Assembly: GCA_902518835.1 (NCBI GenBank)
Contig: CABYHH010000009.1
Span: 1-34,943 of the forward strand
Length of the DNA: 34,943 nucleotides
Origin: an uncultured Pelagibacteraceae bacterium
GTDB lineage: Bacteria > Pseudomonadota > Alphaproteobacteria > Pelagibacterales > Pelagibacteraceae
Reading direction: 5' to 3'
Shown here: positions 4,759 through 31,433 of the stretch, in pieces
How the letters are laid out: every line of letters begins with the position of its first letter
Position numbering within the stretch: position 1 is the stretch's first letter
Notes under the pieces: generated by a model
What the model was told of the DNA's origin: nothing
The model's input: the letters and a program-made list of their open reading frames with translations, nothing else
Database searches by the model: none
Made by a program: the position numbers and the translations under genes

Positions 4759-6909
4759 ATGGCCCAAGATGTCATAAACATTCTAACAAGTAATATTGAT
4801 ACGCTTTGGGTCATCAATTGCGCGATTTTAGTTTTCATAATGCAAGCAGGTTTTATGTGCATGGAAACTGGCCTATCGCGACACAAGAACAGTATTAACG
4901 TTGCACTAAAAAACGCCGCAGATTTTGGAGTATCAGTAGTTATTTTTTGGATTTTTGGTTTTGGGTTAATGTTTGGGACTTCCTATAACGGTTTGTTTGG
5001 AACTGACTTATTTTTTTTTAAAACTGATAAAGCTGAGTATATGACTTACTTTGTTTTCCAAGCAATGTTTGTTGCAACGGCTGCAACAATTATTTCTGGA
5101 GCGGTTGCTGAAAGAATGAAGTTTAATGGATATTTAATAATGACTGTACTTGCTACTGGAATTATTTATCCTATCGTTGGTCACTGGGCATGGTCTTCAA
5201 GCTATCTTTCAAAATATGATACTGTGGATCAGTTATTAGTGGTAACTGATACAGTTAGAGCAACCGGGTGGCTTTCAGACATGGGCTTTATCGATTTCGC
5301 TGGAAGCACAATTGTTCATTCAGTTGGCGGATGGATTGCATTAGCTGCAATAATTATATTGGGACCGAGAATTGGAAAATATTCAAAAGCGAATAAAGGA
5401 AAATTTACTGGATCAAGTTTTCCTCTTGCTGTTTTGGGTACATTAATTTTATGGTTTGGTTGGTTTGGTTTTAATGGTGGAAGCAATGGTGCAATGGATG
5501 AGGTTGTTCCTTTAATTTTAATAAATACTTTTTTAGCAGCTGCATTTGGATTACTTACAGGTTTGAGTATTTCTTACTTAAAATTTAAAAAACCTGATCC
5601 TTTTTACATTATTTTAGGGCCTTTAGCTGGATTAGTCGCAATTACTGCGGGATGTAATTCTATGACATCGGTCACTTCCATATTTGTTGGAATAGGTGGA
5701 GCAATCATTGCTATAGTGGTAAATGAAATTCTAAACAAATACGAAATTGATGATGTCGTTGGTGCTGTACCGGTTCACTTAGCTGCAGGAATTTGGGGCA
5801 CCTTAGCGGTTGGACTCTTCAGTGACTTAAGTATTTTAGGAACTGAATTGGATCGGTTTTCTCAAATTAAAATTCAACTAGTTGGGATTGGATCAATTGG
5901 TGCATTTACTTTTATTTCTTCGTTTATAATTTTAAGTGCCTTCAATAAATTTTATCCTTTGAGAGTTAGTACCGTTCAAGAAGAATTAGGTCTTAACATT
6001 GCAGAACATAATGCAGTATCTATAGAACATGATTTAATTTCTATTTTAGATAAGCAATCAGAATCTGGAGATTTAAAAGTAAGAGGACCTCAAGATCCTT
6101 TTACTGCTGGAGGAGTAATTGGTCTTTATTATAATAAGTTGATGAGTAAACTTGAGACTAGTGAAGAAGAAAAAAATAAGTGGCGTGAAAGAATTTCTAA
6201 AGAAGTAAAACTTGCAGTTAAAGTTCAAGAAAATTTCTTACCTAAAAGGAATTTAAAAAATTACCCTGTTCATGGAATAAATATTGCTGCAAGAGAAGTA
6301 TCAGGTGATTTTTTTAGTTTTTATCCTCATAACGATAGCATTTATTTTATAATAGCAGATGTAGCTGGAAAAGGAATTCATGCAGGAATGGTTATGGCAA
6401 AAGCATCAACATTATTTGAAGTTTTATCTCAATCAAAGGTAGATCCAGATGAAATGGTTTTTCATATGAATAATGATTTAAATAATACTAAGACAGGTGG
6501 AATGTTTGTTACATCAATTGTTGGTGAATATAATGTAATCTCTGATGAACTTCTATGGGTTAATGCTGGACATCAGCCTGCAATTATTAGAGACAGTCTC
6601 GGTAAATACAGCCAAGTTGATAGCACAGCTCCGCCATTGGGAGTTATAAAGCATAAAGATAAAAATATTTATAAGATTAATAAAATTAAACTTAATGGCT
6701 CAAGGTTCTATGCATTTACAGATGGGCTATCAGAGAGCTTTAATGAGGAGGGTAATGAGATTGGCATAGAAGGTTCTATTAAAATTATTGAAGAAAATTA
6801 TAATAAAGACAGTAAAAAACAATTAGATAACATCACAAAATTTGTGATTAATACAACTAATAATAAAAAACTTAGTGATGATTTAACTGTAATAAGTGTT
6901 GGAAAATGA
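4759..6909 (+). CDS. Ammonium transporter (Amt) fused to a PP2C/SpoIIE-type serine phosphatase
   Basis: A 716-aa fusion. Residues 1 to about 425 form a complete Amt/MEP/Rh channel with eleven predicted helices. The GFMCMETG entry motif is present, and the two conducting-pore histidines are H187 (IVHSVGG) and H340 (VHLAAG), spaced as in E. coli AmtB. The cytoplasmic tail GLNIAEH is normal for Amt. A helical, charged linker (about 455-490) leads to a PP2C/SpoIIE domain (about 490-716). Its metal-binding acidic residues are intact: D517 (VSGDFF), D534 (ADVAGKG), D655 (FTDG) and D707-D708 (SDDLT). The likely role is a membrane ammonium sensor or transporter that controls dephosphorylation of a STAS protein; the two STAS genes are about 1.2 kb upstream. 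Amt fusions to histidine kinases and GGDEF domains are known; I do not recall a characterised phosphatase fusion. No glnK-like gene accompanies it. Confidence 0.93.
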   Translation: MAQDVINILTSNIDTLWVINCAILVFIMQAGFMCMETGLSRHKNSINVALKNAADFGVSVVIFWIFGFGLMFGTSYNGLFGTDLFFFKTDKAEYMTYFVFQAMFVATAATIISGAVAERMKFNGYLIMTVLATGIIYPIVGHWAWSSSYLSKYDTVDQLLVVTDTVRATGWLSDMGFIDFAGSTIVHSVGGWIALAAIIILGPRIGKYSKANKGKFTGSSFPLAVLGTLILWFGWFGFNGGSNGAMDEVVPLILINTFLAAAFGLLTGLSISYLKFKKPDPFYIILGPLAGLVAITAGCNSMTSVTSIFVGIGGAIIAIVVNEILNKYEIDDVVGAVPVHLAAGIWGTLAVGLFSDLSILGTELDRFSQIKIQLVGIGSIGAFTFISSFIILSAFNKFYPLRVSTVQEELGLNIAEHNAVSIEHDLISILDKQSESGDLKVRGPQDPFTAGGVIGLYYNKLMSKLETSEEEKNKWRERISKEVKLAVKVQENFLPKRNLKNYPVHGINIAAREVSGDFFSFYPHNDSIYFIIADVAGKGIHAGMVMAKASTLFEVLSQSKVDPDEMVFHMNNDLNNTKTGGMFVTSIVGEYNVISDELLWVNAGHQPAIIRDSLGKYSQVDSTAPPLGVIKHKDKNIYKINKIKLNGSRFYAFTDGLSESFNEEGNEIGIEGSIKIIEENYNKDSKKQLDNITKFVINTTNNKKLSDDLTVISVGK

Positions 6910-23679: not shown

Positions 23680-25506
23680 GTGGAAAGAATAATTACTAAA
23701 TCATTTGCTAGATTAATGGGTCGGGGTACTCATCGAGGTTTCATCACATATGAAGAGTTGAATAAATCATTAGGCAAAAGAAATTTATCTGATGAAAATT
23801 TAGCTCAAGCTTTTATTCATATTTTAGATGAGAAAGTAACTCTCGTAGAAAAGAAATCAGATTTTAAAGTTTTAAGAAAAAAAGAGGGTTCCTCAAAAGA
23901 TGAGGGCAAAACAATAGACAAAAGTGATGACCCTATAAGAATGTATTTAAGAGAGATGGGAGGTGTTGAACTTTTATCCAGAGAGGGTGAGATTGCGATT
24001 GCTAAAAGGATTGAGGCTGGAAAGGATGTTATGCTAATTGCATTATCTCAAAGTCCAATTACAGCTCAACAATTTTTTGATTGGAATGAAAAACTACAGA
24101 AAGATGAGATTTTGGTCAGAGAAATTATCGATATTGATACAAACTACATGGAAGATGAAACTACAGGACCTAGTGCAAAGCAAAAAAATTCTGGTGAAAC
24201 TGAAAAGGAAGAAAATACATCTGAGGAAGTTGATGAGGATTTTAATCCAACACTCGCAGCCATGGAGACTGAGATTAAACCCAAAGTATTAAAAACTATT
24301 TATGAACTCACTAAAGATTATAATAAATTAATAAAATATCAAAAGGAAAAATTAGAATGTGTTTTATCTTCACAAATTTTTTCCTCTAGCAAAGAAAAGA
24401 ATTATGAAAAAATTGTTAGTCAAATTTTAGAAAATATCAAATCATTACAACTTTCCCCATCAGTCTTAGAGGAGTTGGTTCAAAAACATTATGTTGAGAA
24501 TAAAAAGATAATTTCTTTAGAAGGAAATTTATTAAGACTTGCTTTAAATTCGAATATTCCAAGAAATGAATTTATTAAATACTATATTGGCAACGAAATA
24601 AACCCAAGCTTTAAAAAATTCCTAGATACAAATTTAGCTTGGAAAAAATTTTTTACGAAAAATAAAGATGAATTTAAAAATATCAGAGAAAGACTAATTG
24701 AAATAAGTAACAAGTTGGGGATTTCTGTCACAGATTTTAAAAAATTAGTGAGTCGAGTTCAGAAGGGAGAGAAGGAGTCAAGAATAGCAAAAAAAGAAAT
24801 GGTAGAGGCAAATTTAAGATTAGTAATTTCTATAGCTAAAAAATATACAAATAGAGGCTTACAATTTCTTGATTTAATTCAAGAGGGTAATATTGGATTA
24901 ATGAAAGCTGTTGATAAGTTTGAATATAGAAGAGGATACAAATTTTCAACTTATGCTACTTGGTGGATCAGGCAAGCGATCACTAGATCAATTGCTGATC
25001 AAGCTAGAACTATAAGAATTCCTGTACACATGATTGAAACTATAAATAAAATAGTTAGAACACAAAGATTAATTTTAAGTGAATTTGGAAGAGAGGCTAC
25101 CCCAGAGGAATTAGCAAAAAAATTGAGAATGCCATTAGATAAAGTTAGAAAAGTATTAAAAATTTCAAAAGAGCCAGTGTCTTTAGAAAAACCTGTTGGT
25201 GATGAGGAGGATAGTAGTCTGGGTGACTTTATAGAAGATACGAAAGCATTAGCTCCACTTGAGCAAGCTATTAAATCAAATTTAGGTGAGGCAACCACAA
25301 AAATATTATCAACATTAACTCCTAGAGAGGAAAGAGTTCTAAGAATGCGTTTTGGTGTAGGGATGAATACTGATCATACTTTGGAGGAAGTTGGTTTGCA
25401 GTTTTCTGTAACAAGAGAGAGAATTCGACAAATTGAAGCAAAAGCATTAAGAAAGTTAAAACATCCTAGTAGATCAAAACAATTAAAAAGTTTTTTAGAG
25501 AGTTAA
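23680..25506 (+). CDS. rpoD: RNA polymerase housekeeping sigma factor (sigma-70)
   Basis: 608 aa from a GTG at 23680. Region 1.1 is at the N-terminus, region 1.2 is [22 protein letters not shown], and a long acidic non-conserved insert spans about residues 160-370. The 2.1-2.4 block is nearly invariant ([46 protein letters not shown]). Region 3 and region 4.2 ([24 protein letters not shown]) close the protein. It directs transcription of most genes. It is the only sigma factor in the window and is not an evident client of the RsbW-like protein, which normally binds alternative sigma factors. A tRNA gene starts eight bases after its stop. Confidence 0.97.
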
Positions 25507-25513
25507 TACTAAA

Positions 25514-25588
25514 GGGCCGTTAGCTCAATAGTAGAGTACTGCATTGACATTGCAGGGGTAGTTGGAGCGTAACCAACACGGCCCACCA
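25514..25588 (+). tRNA. tRNA-Val (anticodon GAC) with non-canonical D and T loops
   Basis: A 75-base cloverleaf. The acceptor GGGCCGT/ACGGCCC is followed by an encoded ACCA. The anticodon arm CTGCA-TTGACAT-TGCAG gives GAC at 25546-25548, and the T stem GTTGG/CCAAC is perfect. The T loop is AGCGTAA rather than the near-universal TTCRANN, so T54, T55 and A58 are all changed. The D loop is AATAGTA, with only one G where two adjacent Gs normally contact the T loop. All stems pair well, so it is not simply decayed. It directly follows rpoD and may be co-transcribed. Confidence 0.8.
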
Positions 25589-25628
25589 AATTTTGAATTT
25601 TAAATTTAAATGATAGTTTTTAAAAGTT

Positions 25629-26528
25629 ATGAGAAAAGAATTAGATGAGTTAAGAGTTGTTTTTGCTGGTTGTGCTAGAGACTGCGAAGACACCTTGGAA
25701 AAAAGTCTTCAGAATATAGAATTTTATTCATCTTTTTTTAAAGAAAGTCACCAGATAATAGTAGAAAATGGATCAAAAGATCAAACCAGAGAAATTTTAA
25801 AAAAGAACAAAACTAAAAATTGCTATTATTTATTTGAGGATCAACTTAATGCATTACCTGTAAGAGGCATGCGATTAGAAAGAGCAAGAAACATAATTAT
25901 AGATAAAATAAAATCAGTTCCCAGATTAAATGAATGTGATCTATTAATAATTTTAGATTTAGATGGATCAGGAAATTATAAGATAGAAAACAAGGATATA
26001 ATTGATTCTATTAATTTCCTTTTTTCCAAAAAAAATATAGCAGCTGTTTTTGCTAATCAATTAGGTACATATTATGATATGTGGACATTAAGAGACGAAA
26101 AGTATTGCAAAAATGATTTTTGGGCAGAGGTTCTACAAAATATTACAAAGAAAATAAATCCAAAAGAAAAAATTAATCAGCAAATTTTAGATAAGGTAAA
26201 GGAGGAATATATTGATAAAAACACTTATTCCTTCGATAAAAATCTAGAACCAATTAAAGTTCTTTCAGCATTTGGAGGTTTTGGTATCTACAAAATGAAC
26301 TTTATTATTGAAAATAAAAAAAAATATCAGGGTACACAAATAGTTGACCTGATCTTTAAAGATAACACCAAAGCAAAAATAAATTTTCAAAAATGTGAGC
26401 ATGTAAATTTTAATTTAGGCTTAAGTGAAAATAATTTAGAATTGTATATTTTACCTTATCTAATAAATAGAGAATATTTAAATGTTACTTTCCCCCCTCA
26501 GGCAGCAATAAAATTAATTATAAAATGA
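25629..26528 (+). CDS. GT-A-fold glycosyltransferase, CMT1/GT69-like
   Basis: 299 aa, no signal peptide. The N-terminal Rossmann-like strand FAGCARDCEDTLEKSL, the VENGSKDQTREIL segment, and a DxD-type metal site D110-L-D112 (ILDLDGSG) are typical of GT-A glycosyltransferases. The overall pattern (GxxRD, then long linker, then SAFGGFGIYK) recalls the CMT1-type mannosyltransferase family. The gene is followed by a GT4 glycosyltransferase overlapping by four bases. Together they probably build a surface polysaccharide or glycan; donor and acceptor are unknown. The composition is very AT-rich and it sits in an apparent island between two tRNA genes. Confidence 0.7.
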   Translation: MRKELDELRVVFAGCARDCEDTLEKSLQNIEFYSSFFKESHQIIVENGSKDQTREILKKNKTKNCYYLFEDQLNALPVRGMRLERARNIIIDKIKSVPRLNECDLLIILDLDGSGNYKIENKDIIDSINFLFSKKNIAAVFANQLGTYYDMWTLRDEKYCKNDFWAEVLQNITKKINPKEKINQQILDKVKEEYIDKNTYSFDKNLEPIKVLSAFGGFGIYKMNFIIENKKKYQGTQIVDLIFKDNTKAKINFQKCEHVNFNLGLSENNLELYILPYLINREYLNVTFPPQAAIKLIIK

Positions 26529-27649
26529 TATCACATAAACTAAAAATAATTTTAGATGGTACTGTTTTGGGTATGGCTATAGACAATAAGTTAGCTAGAA
26601 CAGGTATTTATTTTGTAATAAAAAATTTGTGTGACAGTTTACTTTTAAGGAATGATCTAGAATTTAAAATTTTAGCACCAGTTGAACTAAGAAAAAAAAT
26701 GATTTCTTTTTATTCGAATCATCGATTTGAAGAATGTTTTGACCTAACTAATATTAAACTTGGAGAAGAAAAATTAAATTTTATAATGCCCTTTCATCCA
26801 GCTGGTCAAGATTTATACAAAATTCCTGAGTCAAATATTTTTCAGATTATCTATGATTTTTCTATTCATTTTTGTCCGGAATTAAAAGGTTCAAATATAA
26901 GTTTTGAAAAAAATATTCTTAAATCATTGAATTCGAAAAGTCATGCACTATGTATTTCAAAAAAAACTAGATCTGATCTTTTATCTATTTCAAATATTGA
27001 GCCAAATAAAGTAGGAGTTTTTTATCCTGGACTGAGAAATGATTTTGATAAAAATTATAAAACTAAAATTGATATTAATAAATTTCTTAACATTCCCGAA
27101 AATTCAAAATATATTTTATGTTTGTCTACACTTGAACCAAGAAAAAACTTAAGAACTTCCATAGAGATTTTTGAAAGAATGATTTTAAACTCTAATTTTG
27201 ATAATTTATATCTTGTTCTTACTGGAGCGAAAGGTTGGGGTAAAATAGATGAGCAAATTAATACTTTTTCAAATAAAATTAAAAAAAAAATTATAATTAC
27301 TGGATATGTTGATGATAATATTGTTTATCATTTATATAAGTCATCGCTTTGTTTTTTATATCCATCTTTTTATGAAGGATTTGGATTGCCTCCACTTGAG
27401 GCAATGGCAGCTGGTACTCCGGTGATTGTTTCCAACAGAGGTTCACTTCCCGAGATTTTTGGAAAAGCTACTAAAGTTTTTGATCCATATGATATTACTG
27501 GTATGACATCTAAAATTCATTATTTATATTTAAATTCAAAAAAAAGAGAAGAAGAAGGAAATAAGTTAAAAAAATTTTCTAAATTATTTACTTGGAAAAA
27601 ATCTTCAGAAGAAATTATCAGTTTTATTAAGAAATTTAAAAAAATCTAA
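26525..27649 (+). CDS. GT4-family glycosyltransferase (group 1)
   Basis: 374 aa with two Rossmann-like halves (GT-B fold). The C-terminal donor-binding half is clear: [10 protein letters not shown] (about 204), the [10 protein letters not shown] strand, and the E284-x7-E292 motif in [27 protein letters not shown]. Retaining transfer from a nucleotide-sugar to a cell-surface glycan is expected. Start ATG at 26525 overlaps the previous stop (ATGA), so the pair is translationally coupled. The sugar specificity cannot be read from the sequence. Confidence 0.9.
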
Positions 27650-27701
27650 TTATTACTTATTAATTATTGATCTATATAATAAATACTTATAGTAATTTTG
27701 T

Positions 27702-28379
27702 ATGGAAAATTTAGATTTTTATAATTGGTTTGATAAAATCTCTATCAAATTAGAGACAAGAAAAGACTCATTTTACCAAATTTTTAAATATTTAGATAAA
27801 ATACCTGAACCAATTACGATTGTAGAAACAGGTTGTCTAAGAATTAAAGACAATTTTTCAGGTGATGGTCAAAGTACGTTGTTATTTGATAAATATACAC
27901 AATCTAGAAAAAATAATTCTAAAGTCTATACCGTTGATATTAATCCTAGTGCCACAAAAGTTTGTTCAGAAATTGTGAGTGAAAATGTTTCAATTAATAC
28001 GGGTGATAGTGTGAAATATTTAAATACTTTAAGTAAAGAATTCTTTAAAAATAAAACTGATGTTTCGTTATTTTATTTAGATAGCTTTGATTGTGATTGG
28101 AAATCACCATATCAATCAGCACAACATCATTTAAAGGAGTTGGTGAGTATAAAAAAAATTTTAAATAAGCAAACATTAGTAGTGGTAGATGACTCCCCAA
28201 TAATAGGATATTTACAACAATCAAATGTAAAAAAAGATACTCTTGAATTTATGAAGCCAGGATTAGTTCCTAGCCCAACAATTTCAGGAAAAGGGAGCTT
28301 GGTTCATGAGTATGCAGTTCATACAGGTGCAAAGATTCTTTTTTCAAATTATCAAACAGGGTGGGTAGGATTTAATTAA
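27702..28379 (+). CDS. Class I SAM-dependent methyltransferase-like protein
   Basis: 225 aa. The methyltransferase fold is suggested by IVETGCLR (motif I region, residues 43-50), VYTVDINPSATKVC (acidic end of strand beta2), and SLFYLDSFDCDW with VVVDDSP further on. This pattern fits class I methyltransferases (methyltransferase_24-like). Motif I is not the classic glycine-rich form, so the catalytic role is not secure. It follows the two glycosyltransferases after 52 bases and may modify the same glycan. Confidence 0.6.
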   Translation: MENLDFYNWFDKISIKLETRKDSFYQIFKYLDKIPEPITIVETGCLRIKDNFSGDGQSTLLFDKYTQSRKNNSKVYTVDINPSATKVCSEIVSENVSINTGDSVKYLNTLSKEFFKNKTDVSLFYLDSFDCDWKSPYQSAQHHLKELVSIKKILNKQTLVVVDDSPIIGYLQQSNVKKDTLEFMKPGLVPSPTISGKGSLVHEYAVHTGAKILFSNYQTGWVGFN

Positions 28380-28402
28380 TTAGAATATTATTCTTTTAAA
28401 AA

Positions 28403-28600
28403 ATGCGTGTTACAATGGATTATAATATCTCGTATATTGATATTAATTCTTTGAAATTAATAAAATACTTAGATAGAGAAACTGTTTTAGAGGTAAAGGC
28501 ATCTGACAATATAAGTTTCGATTATATACAGGAGTTTATTTACCATCCAATTTCAAGATTTTCAAAATATTTAAGAAATTTATTGGTCATGGGGAAATGA
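28403..28600 (+). CDS. Short hypothetical protein, possibly a remnant
   Basis: 65 aa from an ATG at 28403 with no recognisable domain, signal peptide or membrane segment. Its interior resembles ordinary coding composition (LKYLDRETVLEVKA-like pattern), but there is no clear ribosome-binding site. It may be the end of a decayed glycan gene at the edge of the tRNA-flanked island. A 20-residue frame starting at 28597 overlaps it and is probably noncoding. Confidence 0.25.
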   Translation: MRVTMDYNISYIDINSLKLIKYLDRETVLEVKASDNISFDYIQEFIYHPISRFSKYLRNLLVMGK

Positions 28601-28675
28601 AAAAAATAATTAAACCATTAAATGATTATCTTCAATTGATAACTGTTAAAAAATGATATAACACAGTATTTGTTT
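28601..28675. other. Short noncoding gap before the CAT tRNA
   Basis: AT-rich DNA between the short hypothetical gene and the tRNA. I see no convincing gene, hairpin or repeat; a tRNA promoter presumably lies here. Confidence 0.3.
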
Positions 28676-28752
28676 GGGCCTGTAGCTCAGTTGGTTAGAG
28701 CAGTACACTCATAATGTATTGGTCCCAGGTTCGAGTCCTGGCGGGCCCACCA
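28676..28752 (+). tRNA. tRNA with CAT anticodon, probably tRNA-Ile2 (lysidine-type)
   Basis: A canonical 77-base tRNA with encoded CCA, D loop AGTTGGTTA and T loop TTCGAGT. The anticodon loop CTCATAA places CAT at 28710-28712. The acceptor has C4-G69 and C5-G68, the pairs known to direct the lysidine synthase TilS in E. coli tRNA-Ile2. The variable region (TTGGTC) also resembles tRNA-Ile2. Elongator tRNA-Met remains possible. Confidence 0.85.
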
Positions 28753-30995: not shown

Positions 30996-31348
30996 TGTCA
31001 GATGAACGACTTATCACTTCAATTTAGAAGAGGAAAGTCCGGGCTCTACAAGGATACAGTGCCAGGTAATACCTGGCGGGGGCAACCCTAGGGATAGTGC
31101 CACAGAAAATAAACCGCCATAACATGGCAAGGGTGAAAAGGTGTGGTAAGAGCACACCGGTTCTATTGGTAACAATGAACGCTGGAAAACCCCACTGAGA
31201 GCAAGACTAAGTAGAGATGACATTGTTGAAAAACTAAAAGCCATCCTTGGCTAGTCATCAGGGTTAGTTGCTTGAGTTTAAGAGTGATCTTAAGCCTAGA
31301 CAAATGATAAGTTTAAAGGACAGAACCCGGCTTACAGTTCATCTGACA
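30996..31348 (+). ncRNA. rnpB: RNase P RNA (catalytic subunit, bacterial type A)
   Basis: Conserved landmarks in order: GAGGAAAGTCCGGGCTC (31033-31049), the ACAGAAA segment near 31112, and AGAACCCGGCTTAC near the 3' end. The ends form a perfect 12-bp P1 helix: TGTCAGATGAAC (30996-31007) pairs with GTTCATCTGACA (31337-31348). It trims the 5' leader of pre-tRNAs. End positions are set by P1 and could differ by a few bases. Confidence 0.95.
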
Positions 31349-31433
31349 AACTTCAAAAAATTATAAAAGCCAAATGCTCACGTTTTAATACATTTTATTA
31401 AACATTCTTAATTTCAATTAATAATAGAATGTA

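Follow-up and report, generated by a model that had tools for sequence, protein, structure and literature searches.

A tRNA-Val(GAC) gene with A18/G55 at the elbow and its counterparts among SAR11 tRNAs

Introduction

Across all domains of life, the contacts G18-Psi55 and T54-A58 count as hallmarks of tRNA, and Psi55 is the most universal tRNA modification. What, then, is a tRNA-Val(GAC) gene that encodes neither contact: a working adaptor, a failing copy or an RNA with a role outside the ribosome? We addressed this question for such a gene in a 34,943-nucleotide stretch of DNA from an uncultured Pelagibacteraceae bacterium (contig CABYHH010000009.1 of assembly GCA_902518835.1), the whole of which is called the window here. 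In the normal elbow, as described in PMC4810234 and PMC7912444, residue 18 reaches into the T loop and contacts residue 55, and the G19-C56 pair forms a flat outer face that is recognized by the ribosome, other RNAs and proteins.

Identity and fold of the tRNA gene

An initial annotation of the window had reported a tRNA-Val(GAC) with D loop AATAGTA, T loop AGCGTAA, a single D-loop G and C56 kept, all of which was borne out. ARAGORN calls the gene, the covariance model Rfam RF00005 scores it at 53.6 bits against a gathering score of 29, and the cloverleaf is its minimum-energy fold at −28.6 kcal/mol (Table 1). In standard numbering, positions 18-55 are A/G in place of G/U and positions 54-58 are A/T in place of T/A; the G18-U55 and T54-A58 elbow contacts are therefore absent, and the Rfam cutoff is passed regardless. 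The further claim that the canonical contacts between TTC and GG are lacking holds for 18-55 and 54-58 and had to be dropped for G19-C56, as the single D-loop G is G19 and the pair is retained. Positions 15 and 48 are both A, as opposed to the usual R-Y combination, and cannot make the usual 15-48 pair.

A35 and C36 in the anticodon and discriminator A73 are main valine identity elements, and the window tRNA (GAC, ACCA) has all three. No match to a selenocysteine tRNA scored over the cutoff. The codons that tRNA-Val(GAC) should read, GTT and GTC, account for 334 of the 564 valine codons (59%) in 23 ORFs of the window.

Table 1. Features of the window around tRNA-Val(GAC), with positions counted from the first letter of the window
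Feature	Position	Strand	Basis
rpoD (sigma-70)	23680..25506	+	ORF; Pfam sigma-70 domains
tRNA-Val(GAC), encoded ACCA end	25514..25588	+	ARAGORN; Rfam RF00005; minimum-energy cloverleaf
D loop AATAGTA: A14 A15 T16 A18 (25530) G19 (25531) T20 A21	25527..25533	+	numbering by homologue alignment
Anticodon GAC, loop TTGACAT	25546..25548	+	ARAGORN; loop invariant in 14 homologues
Variable loop GGGTA, including A48	25556..25560	+	
T loop AGCGTAA: A54 G55 C56 G57 T58 A59 A60	25566..25572	+	
tRNA-Met(CAT), canonical	28676..28752	+	ARAGORN
RNase P RNA, class A, ordinary	30998..31350		286.7 bits

Only 7 bases separate the rpoD stop codon from tRNA-Val(GAC), which makes co-transcription of the two likely. 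At the rpoD loci examined in other SAR11 genera, tRNA-Met follows rpoD without an intervening tRNA-Val. The window holds a glycosyltransferase gene and two more ORFs between rpoD/tRNA-Val and tRNA-Met (25507-28675), and in several relatives tRNA-Val and tRNA-Met lie about 60 bases apart; given this spacing and the position of tRNA-Met after rpoD elsewhere, the interval may be a place of insertion. The source genome (86% complete) has 29 tRNAs, and the T loop contains TTC in all except two, tRNA-Val(GAC) and tRNA-Thr(GGT), the latter with T loop GTCAGTA. Its tRNA-Val(TAC) and tRNA-Phe are canonical.

Conservation and distribution in SAR11

When 101 related genomes were searched with the gene, 49 matched. 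All 49 belong to the window's genus, and 39 (the source genome included) match at 100% identity; no match was obtained in 12 of the 61 genomes of the genus or in any of the 40 from family f2. A sequencing error in the loops, which had been named as a possible undoing of the initial reading, is very unlikely, since the identical 75-mer recurs in 39 of 101 genomes and is present in many single-cell genomes too. A pattern scan of named genomes yielded at least 120 contigs, with the family recorded as Candidatus Pelagibacteraceae in 116 of 120 and not given in 4. The 80 scan contigs listed are all Pelagibacteraceae or Pelagibacterales by title, and many belong to single-cell genomes. Beyond SAR11, the pattern of the odd tRNA-Val, as we call the form found in the window, was sought with 2 mismatches in 385 genomes of the class and matched 3, all of the window's genus.

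The variation among relatives bears on whether the gene is maintained. Across 142 loci with the 75-base form, mean identity was 99% within the tRNA versus 37 and 38% in the 60-base upstream and downstream flanks (2,000 random pairs, no gaps), the 99% leaning upward because the loci were found by identity or T loop. In the stems of 14 distinct homologues, canonical ones included, 294 of 294 cells are paired and 13 of 21 pairs are changed on both sides; the acceptor, anticodon and T stems of the variants change by compensation. None of 500 shuffles reached four of the five measures, covariation score included, and 31 of 500 reached the fifth (further pair types). The loops of the nine odd homologues among the 14 hardly vary. 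With compensatory stems and nearly constant loops, tRNA-Val(GAC) looks like a gene under selection and not the failing gene that the initial annotation had considered; neither the broken pairs nor the relaxed constraint of a pseudogene was found.

The elbow positions fall into discrete states in the same 14 homologues. Positions 18-55 are G/U in five and A/G in nine, and positions 54-58 are U-A in six and A-U in eight, with no mixed combination at either, in agreement with the reversed 54-58 pair proposed earlier; G19-C56 is kept in 14 of 14. One homologue, in G252 (L234), is intermediate: it has A18/G55 together with T54/A58, which shows that one change can occur without the other.

Both forms occur across SAR11. 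Family f2 has canonical forms: 41 of 53 genomes match the search pattern, with D loop AGTGGTA in 41 of 41 and T loop TTCGATY in the 31 examined. In family f1, canonical tRNA-Val is present in 13 genomes of genera g6, g7, g9 and g10, but G158 (g9) and G171 and G225 (both g8) have the odd form; in all, odd tRNA-Val is found in three genera. A canonical form in close relatives had been named at the outset as evidence against an altered tRNA, and the outcome is divided: four genomes of the window's genus (G037, G146, G147 and G226) carry canonical tRNA-Val(GAC) adjoining rpoD, whereas 160 of the 161 tRNA-Val(GAC) called in 164 loci are odd and 1 is canonical. Identity or the T loop had served to choose most of these loci, which biases the set toward odd forms. 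An rpoD tree of 79 rows requires a minimum of six changes of state; it is a quick tree with SH-aLRT support only, weak at 26 of its 76 inner branches, and the changes were counted before the odd form was recognized in G111. The gene has thus changed between odd and canonical several times, through mutation, exchange or both.

In G225 (one contig) and G171, the odd gene lies near tRNA-fMet between flanks that match the canonical-gene flanks of g6, and contamination is unlikely as the cause of patchiness for g8. In G158, odd tRNA-Val lies at L378:4651-4725 on a 308 kb contig, and the best 25 blastn matches to the locus share the tRNA and some surrounding bases only. No canonical tRNA-Val appeared among the hits listed for G158, the other g9 genomes being canonical, and it is possible that a transferred odd gene replaced the canonical one there. 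Three IMG/VR pattern scans and a search of phage records returned nothing in favor of a phage origin.

Some genomes show no tRNA-Val(GAC). Among 10 genus genomes searched with the covariance model, nine (67-97% complete) gave another tRNA as best match, and no tRNA-Val(GAC) was among the 14 model hits of G140 (99% complete, genus g8). In G152, G179 and G202, gaps are likely, as rpoD was also not found; rpoD is present in G025, G035, G040 and G049, which likewise had no tRNA-Val(GAC) match. The tRNA may be dispensable, and it is possible that tRNA-Val(TAC) suffices for the valine codons. Fragments of the 3′ part of odd tRNA-Val, without the 5′ half, were seen in L126 from about position 5210 (the same place in L422, of G637) and in L077 at about 495-533 (G028), and they look like attachment-site remnants or broken copies; G637 also has an intact odd tRNA-Val about 256 kb from the fragment.

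A18/G55 in other SAR11 tRNAs

The combination A18/G55 extends to other isoacceptors. Among 141 distinct SAR11 tRNAs, 117 were G18/U55, 24 were A18/G55 (Val 13, Phe 7, His 2, Thr 1 and Tyr 1) and none was mixed, counts that do not equal independent events given shared ancestry and the retrieval of some sequences by T-loop patterns. A script assigned position 18 to the base that precedes the last D-loop G followed by at least two bases. Six further sequences, whose ARAGORN end was not CCA, were excluded; by eye, two are A18/G55 and four G18/U55. A T-loop pattern, TGCRA, combined with A or G at position 18 and thus covering these two bases with a G55 T loop, matched 213 of 397 Pelagibacterales genomes and none of 53 f2 genomes. 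Among the matches listed, 13 distinct strings were inspected by eye: ten are tRNAs (six Phe, one His, two Thr and one Val), all with A18, and the remaining three have no D stem and are chance matches. Two tRNA-His backgrounds with different D stems carry A18/G55, the second in L407. On these sequences, with the search in tRNAs other than Val covering the order Pelagibacterales, A18/G55 is a recurrent alternative state of SAR11 tRNAs.

A further case is G012, a genome of the window's genus in a single contig of 1,343,202 bases with 32 tRNAs. Its sole tRNA-Phe has D loop AGGAGTA and T loop TGCGAAT, that is, A18/G55; its tRNA-Val(GAC) is identical to that of the window, its tRNA-Thr(GGT) is also A18/G55, and the other 29 tRNAs have TTC and GG. 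In the single-cell genome G637, one tRNA-Phe was present among all 20 model hits, and it is A18/G55. Since a sole tRNA-Phe must serve translation, the ribosome should accept an A18/G55 elbow.

The tRNA-Tyr of G140 (L374:98-183) has D loop AGCAGTCAAA and T loop TGCGAAT and is likewise A18/G55. All isoacceptors with A18/G55 (Val GAC, Phe GAA, Thr GGT, His GTG and Tyr GTA) have G at the wobble position, and none of the distinct tRNAs with another base at 34 among the 141 has the swap. SAR11 tRNA-Thr(GGT) itself (in the source genome at L029:1498-1571; loci L343-L371, L426 and L427) occurs in several types, namely T loop GTCAGTA with G54/G58, the canonical TTCRATT, and A18/G55 in G012 and G022. 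The G54/G58 type comprises seven distinct sequences from the window's genus and family f2. In G078 (f2), two stretches matching tRNA-Thr(GGT) lie about 260 bases apart on opposite strands (L354 and L372), and ARAGORN calls neither.

Search for TruB

The enzyme that makes Psi55 in Bacteria is TruB. It accepts U55 within the motif GUUYRANYC, and Pus10 is described as not bacterial (all as set out in PMC7912444). In G012, the operon order in L489 is nusA-infB-rbfA-rpsO-pnp, with rpsO directly after rbfA and no truB between them. The E. coli TruB query returned nothing at E ≤ 10 in a phmmer search of the six-frame translation of G012, in which 11 of 12 control queries from E. coli were found (rbfA, infB, nusA, rpsO, pnp, truA, gmk, rpoZ, accD, folC and TrmH-like) and rimP was missed. 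By tblastn, the best TruB match had an E value of 1.1, with 10 of 12 controls found and rimP and rbfA missed. These searches covered one genome of the genus with a single distant query, and the missed rimP and rbfA make a false negative possible. A TruB motif scan of G012 gave two matches, which by eye were without the rest of the E. coli motif. In G061 (f2), the nusA-infB-rpsO operon was not within the 400 kb examined for truB. If TruB has truly been lost, as this one genome hints, U55 would no longer be an enzyme target and the inner pair would be freer to change; loss of TruB and Psi55 possibly opened the way for A18/G55.

Discussion

We consider it highly probable that the window encodes a functional elongator tRNA-Val that reads GUU and GUC and folds into the usual L with a substitute elbow, in which A18/G55 and A54-U58 occur and G19-C56 is kept. 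This reading builds on comparison of sequences: conservation, stem compensation, the strict co-occurrence of A18 and G55 in the tRNAs read, and their presence in a sole tRNA-Phe. From these we infer the A18-G55 contact and the expression and charging of tRNA-Val(GAC). Retention of G19-C56 would preserve the flat outer recognition face, while the inner G18-Psi55 would be replaced by A18 with G55 and the intraloop T54-A58 by A54-U58, perhaps as a reversed trans pair. A purine would remain at 18, occupying the space between 57 and 58; A18 would change the hydrogen-bond polarity, which G55 could satisfy.

Three other accounts have to be weighed against this functional elongator. A redundant copy that is failing because tRNA-Val(TAC) can read all valine codons would fit the presence of that tRNA, the 3′ fragments in G637 and G028 and the several genomes with no tRNA-Val(GAC), yet the 75-mer that recurs unchanged in 39 of 101 genomes, the compensatory stems and the fixed anticodon loop speak against decay, as does the share of GTT and GTC among the valine codons of the 23 window ORFs; we regard it as barely credible. 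Hardly more probable is a specialized non-ribosomal tRNA, an idea that the initial annotation had floated and for which the analysis brought no support. Staphylococcal tRNA-Gly for cell-wall bridges has altered loops, and that analogy is what speaks for such a role; the window tRNA shares the altered loops but has a valine anticodon and gives no hint of a function other than translation. Its codon-reading loop is conserved, the 18-55 swap recurs in tRNAs for Thr, His and Tyr and in the one tRNA-Phe that G012 has, and no candidate partner enzyme was found among five window proteins checked with Pfam.

The remaining account dispenses with a specific A18-G55 contact. Psi55 synthesis would have been lost and both positions left free, the co-occurrence of A18 and G55 reflecting a small number of ancestral alleles that were inherited and also exchanged between SAR11 lineages. 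The patchy distribution on the rpoD tree, the odd form in three genera and the failure to find TruB in G012 all suit this idea. Drift, however, should leave mixed states, of which the 141 distinct tRNAs contain none, and the double change is seen in five isoacceptors, among them tRNA-His in two backgrounds whose D stems differ, which hardly suggests one allele. We therefore judge free positions unlikely, and the functional elongator with a paired substitute at the inner elbow is the reading that we prefer. The wider proposition, that SAR11 lost TruB and Psi55 and evolved A18-G55 as a substitute inner pair (with A54-U58 or U54-A58) in several elongators, including the sole tRNA-Phe of one species or more, stands in our estimate at an even balance.

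Known tRNAs offer partial parallels. A canonical bacterial tRNA-Val(GAC) shares the cloverleaf, anticodon GAC, discriminator A, encoded CCA and G19-C56 with the window tRNA, in which 18-55, 54-58 and 15-48 are changed. In E. coli, suppressor tRNAs were reportedly selected from randomized D and T loops (Zagryadskaya et al. 2003, 2004), with G54-G58 as one accepted substitute for T54-A58; those came from laboratory selection and not from natural genes, whereas SAR11 tRNA-Thr(GGT) has G54/G58 naturally. tRNA-Pyl, as portrayed in PMC7609411, is a natural tRNA without G18 and without U54-Psi55, but it also lacks G19/C56, its D loop is short and a single base separates the acceptor and D stems, all features in which the window tRNA is normal, with a 7-base D loop, G19 and C56. 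In Type II metazoan mitochondrial tRNAs, by the same source, G18/G19 and TPsiC are not conserved and the D-T loop interaction is lost, whereas the window tRNA keeps G19-C56 and its other contacts shift in step. Among open-licence papers found, as judged by titles and the starts of abstracts, no description of such SAR11 tRNAs appeared, and the main text of a paper on SAR11 tRNA signatures (PMC3937112) contains no mention of the D loop, T loop, valine, phenylalanine, G18, A18 or G55.

A textbook rule of tRNA shape thus seems to have a natural exception, and such genes may be misjudged wherever gene finding or modification mapping presupposes TTC and GG. With an inner elbow pair that switches as a unit, an intermediate in G252, canonical relatives at the same locus and a sole tRNA-Phe, the contacts that translation needs become directly testable. 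In a very abundant group of bacteria, the finding also links a feature of tRNAs to the possible loss of the Psi55 enzyme. If TruB has indeed been lost and A18-G55 serves as the substitute, SAR11 would be a case of free-living bacteria with a naturally rewired tRNA elbow.
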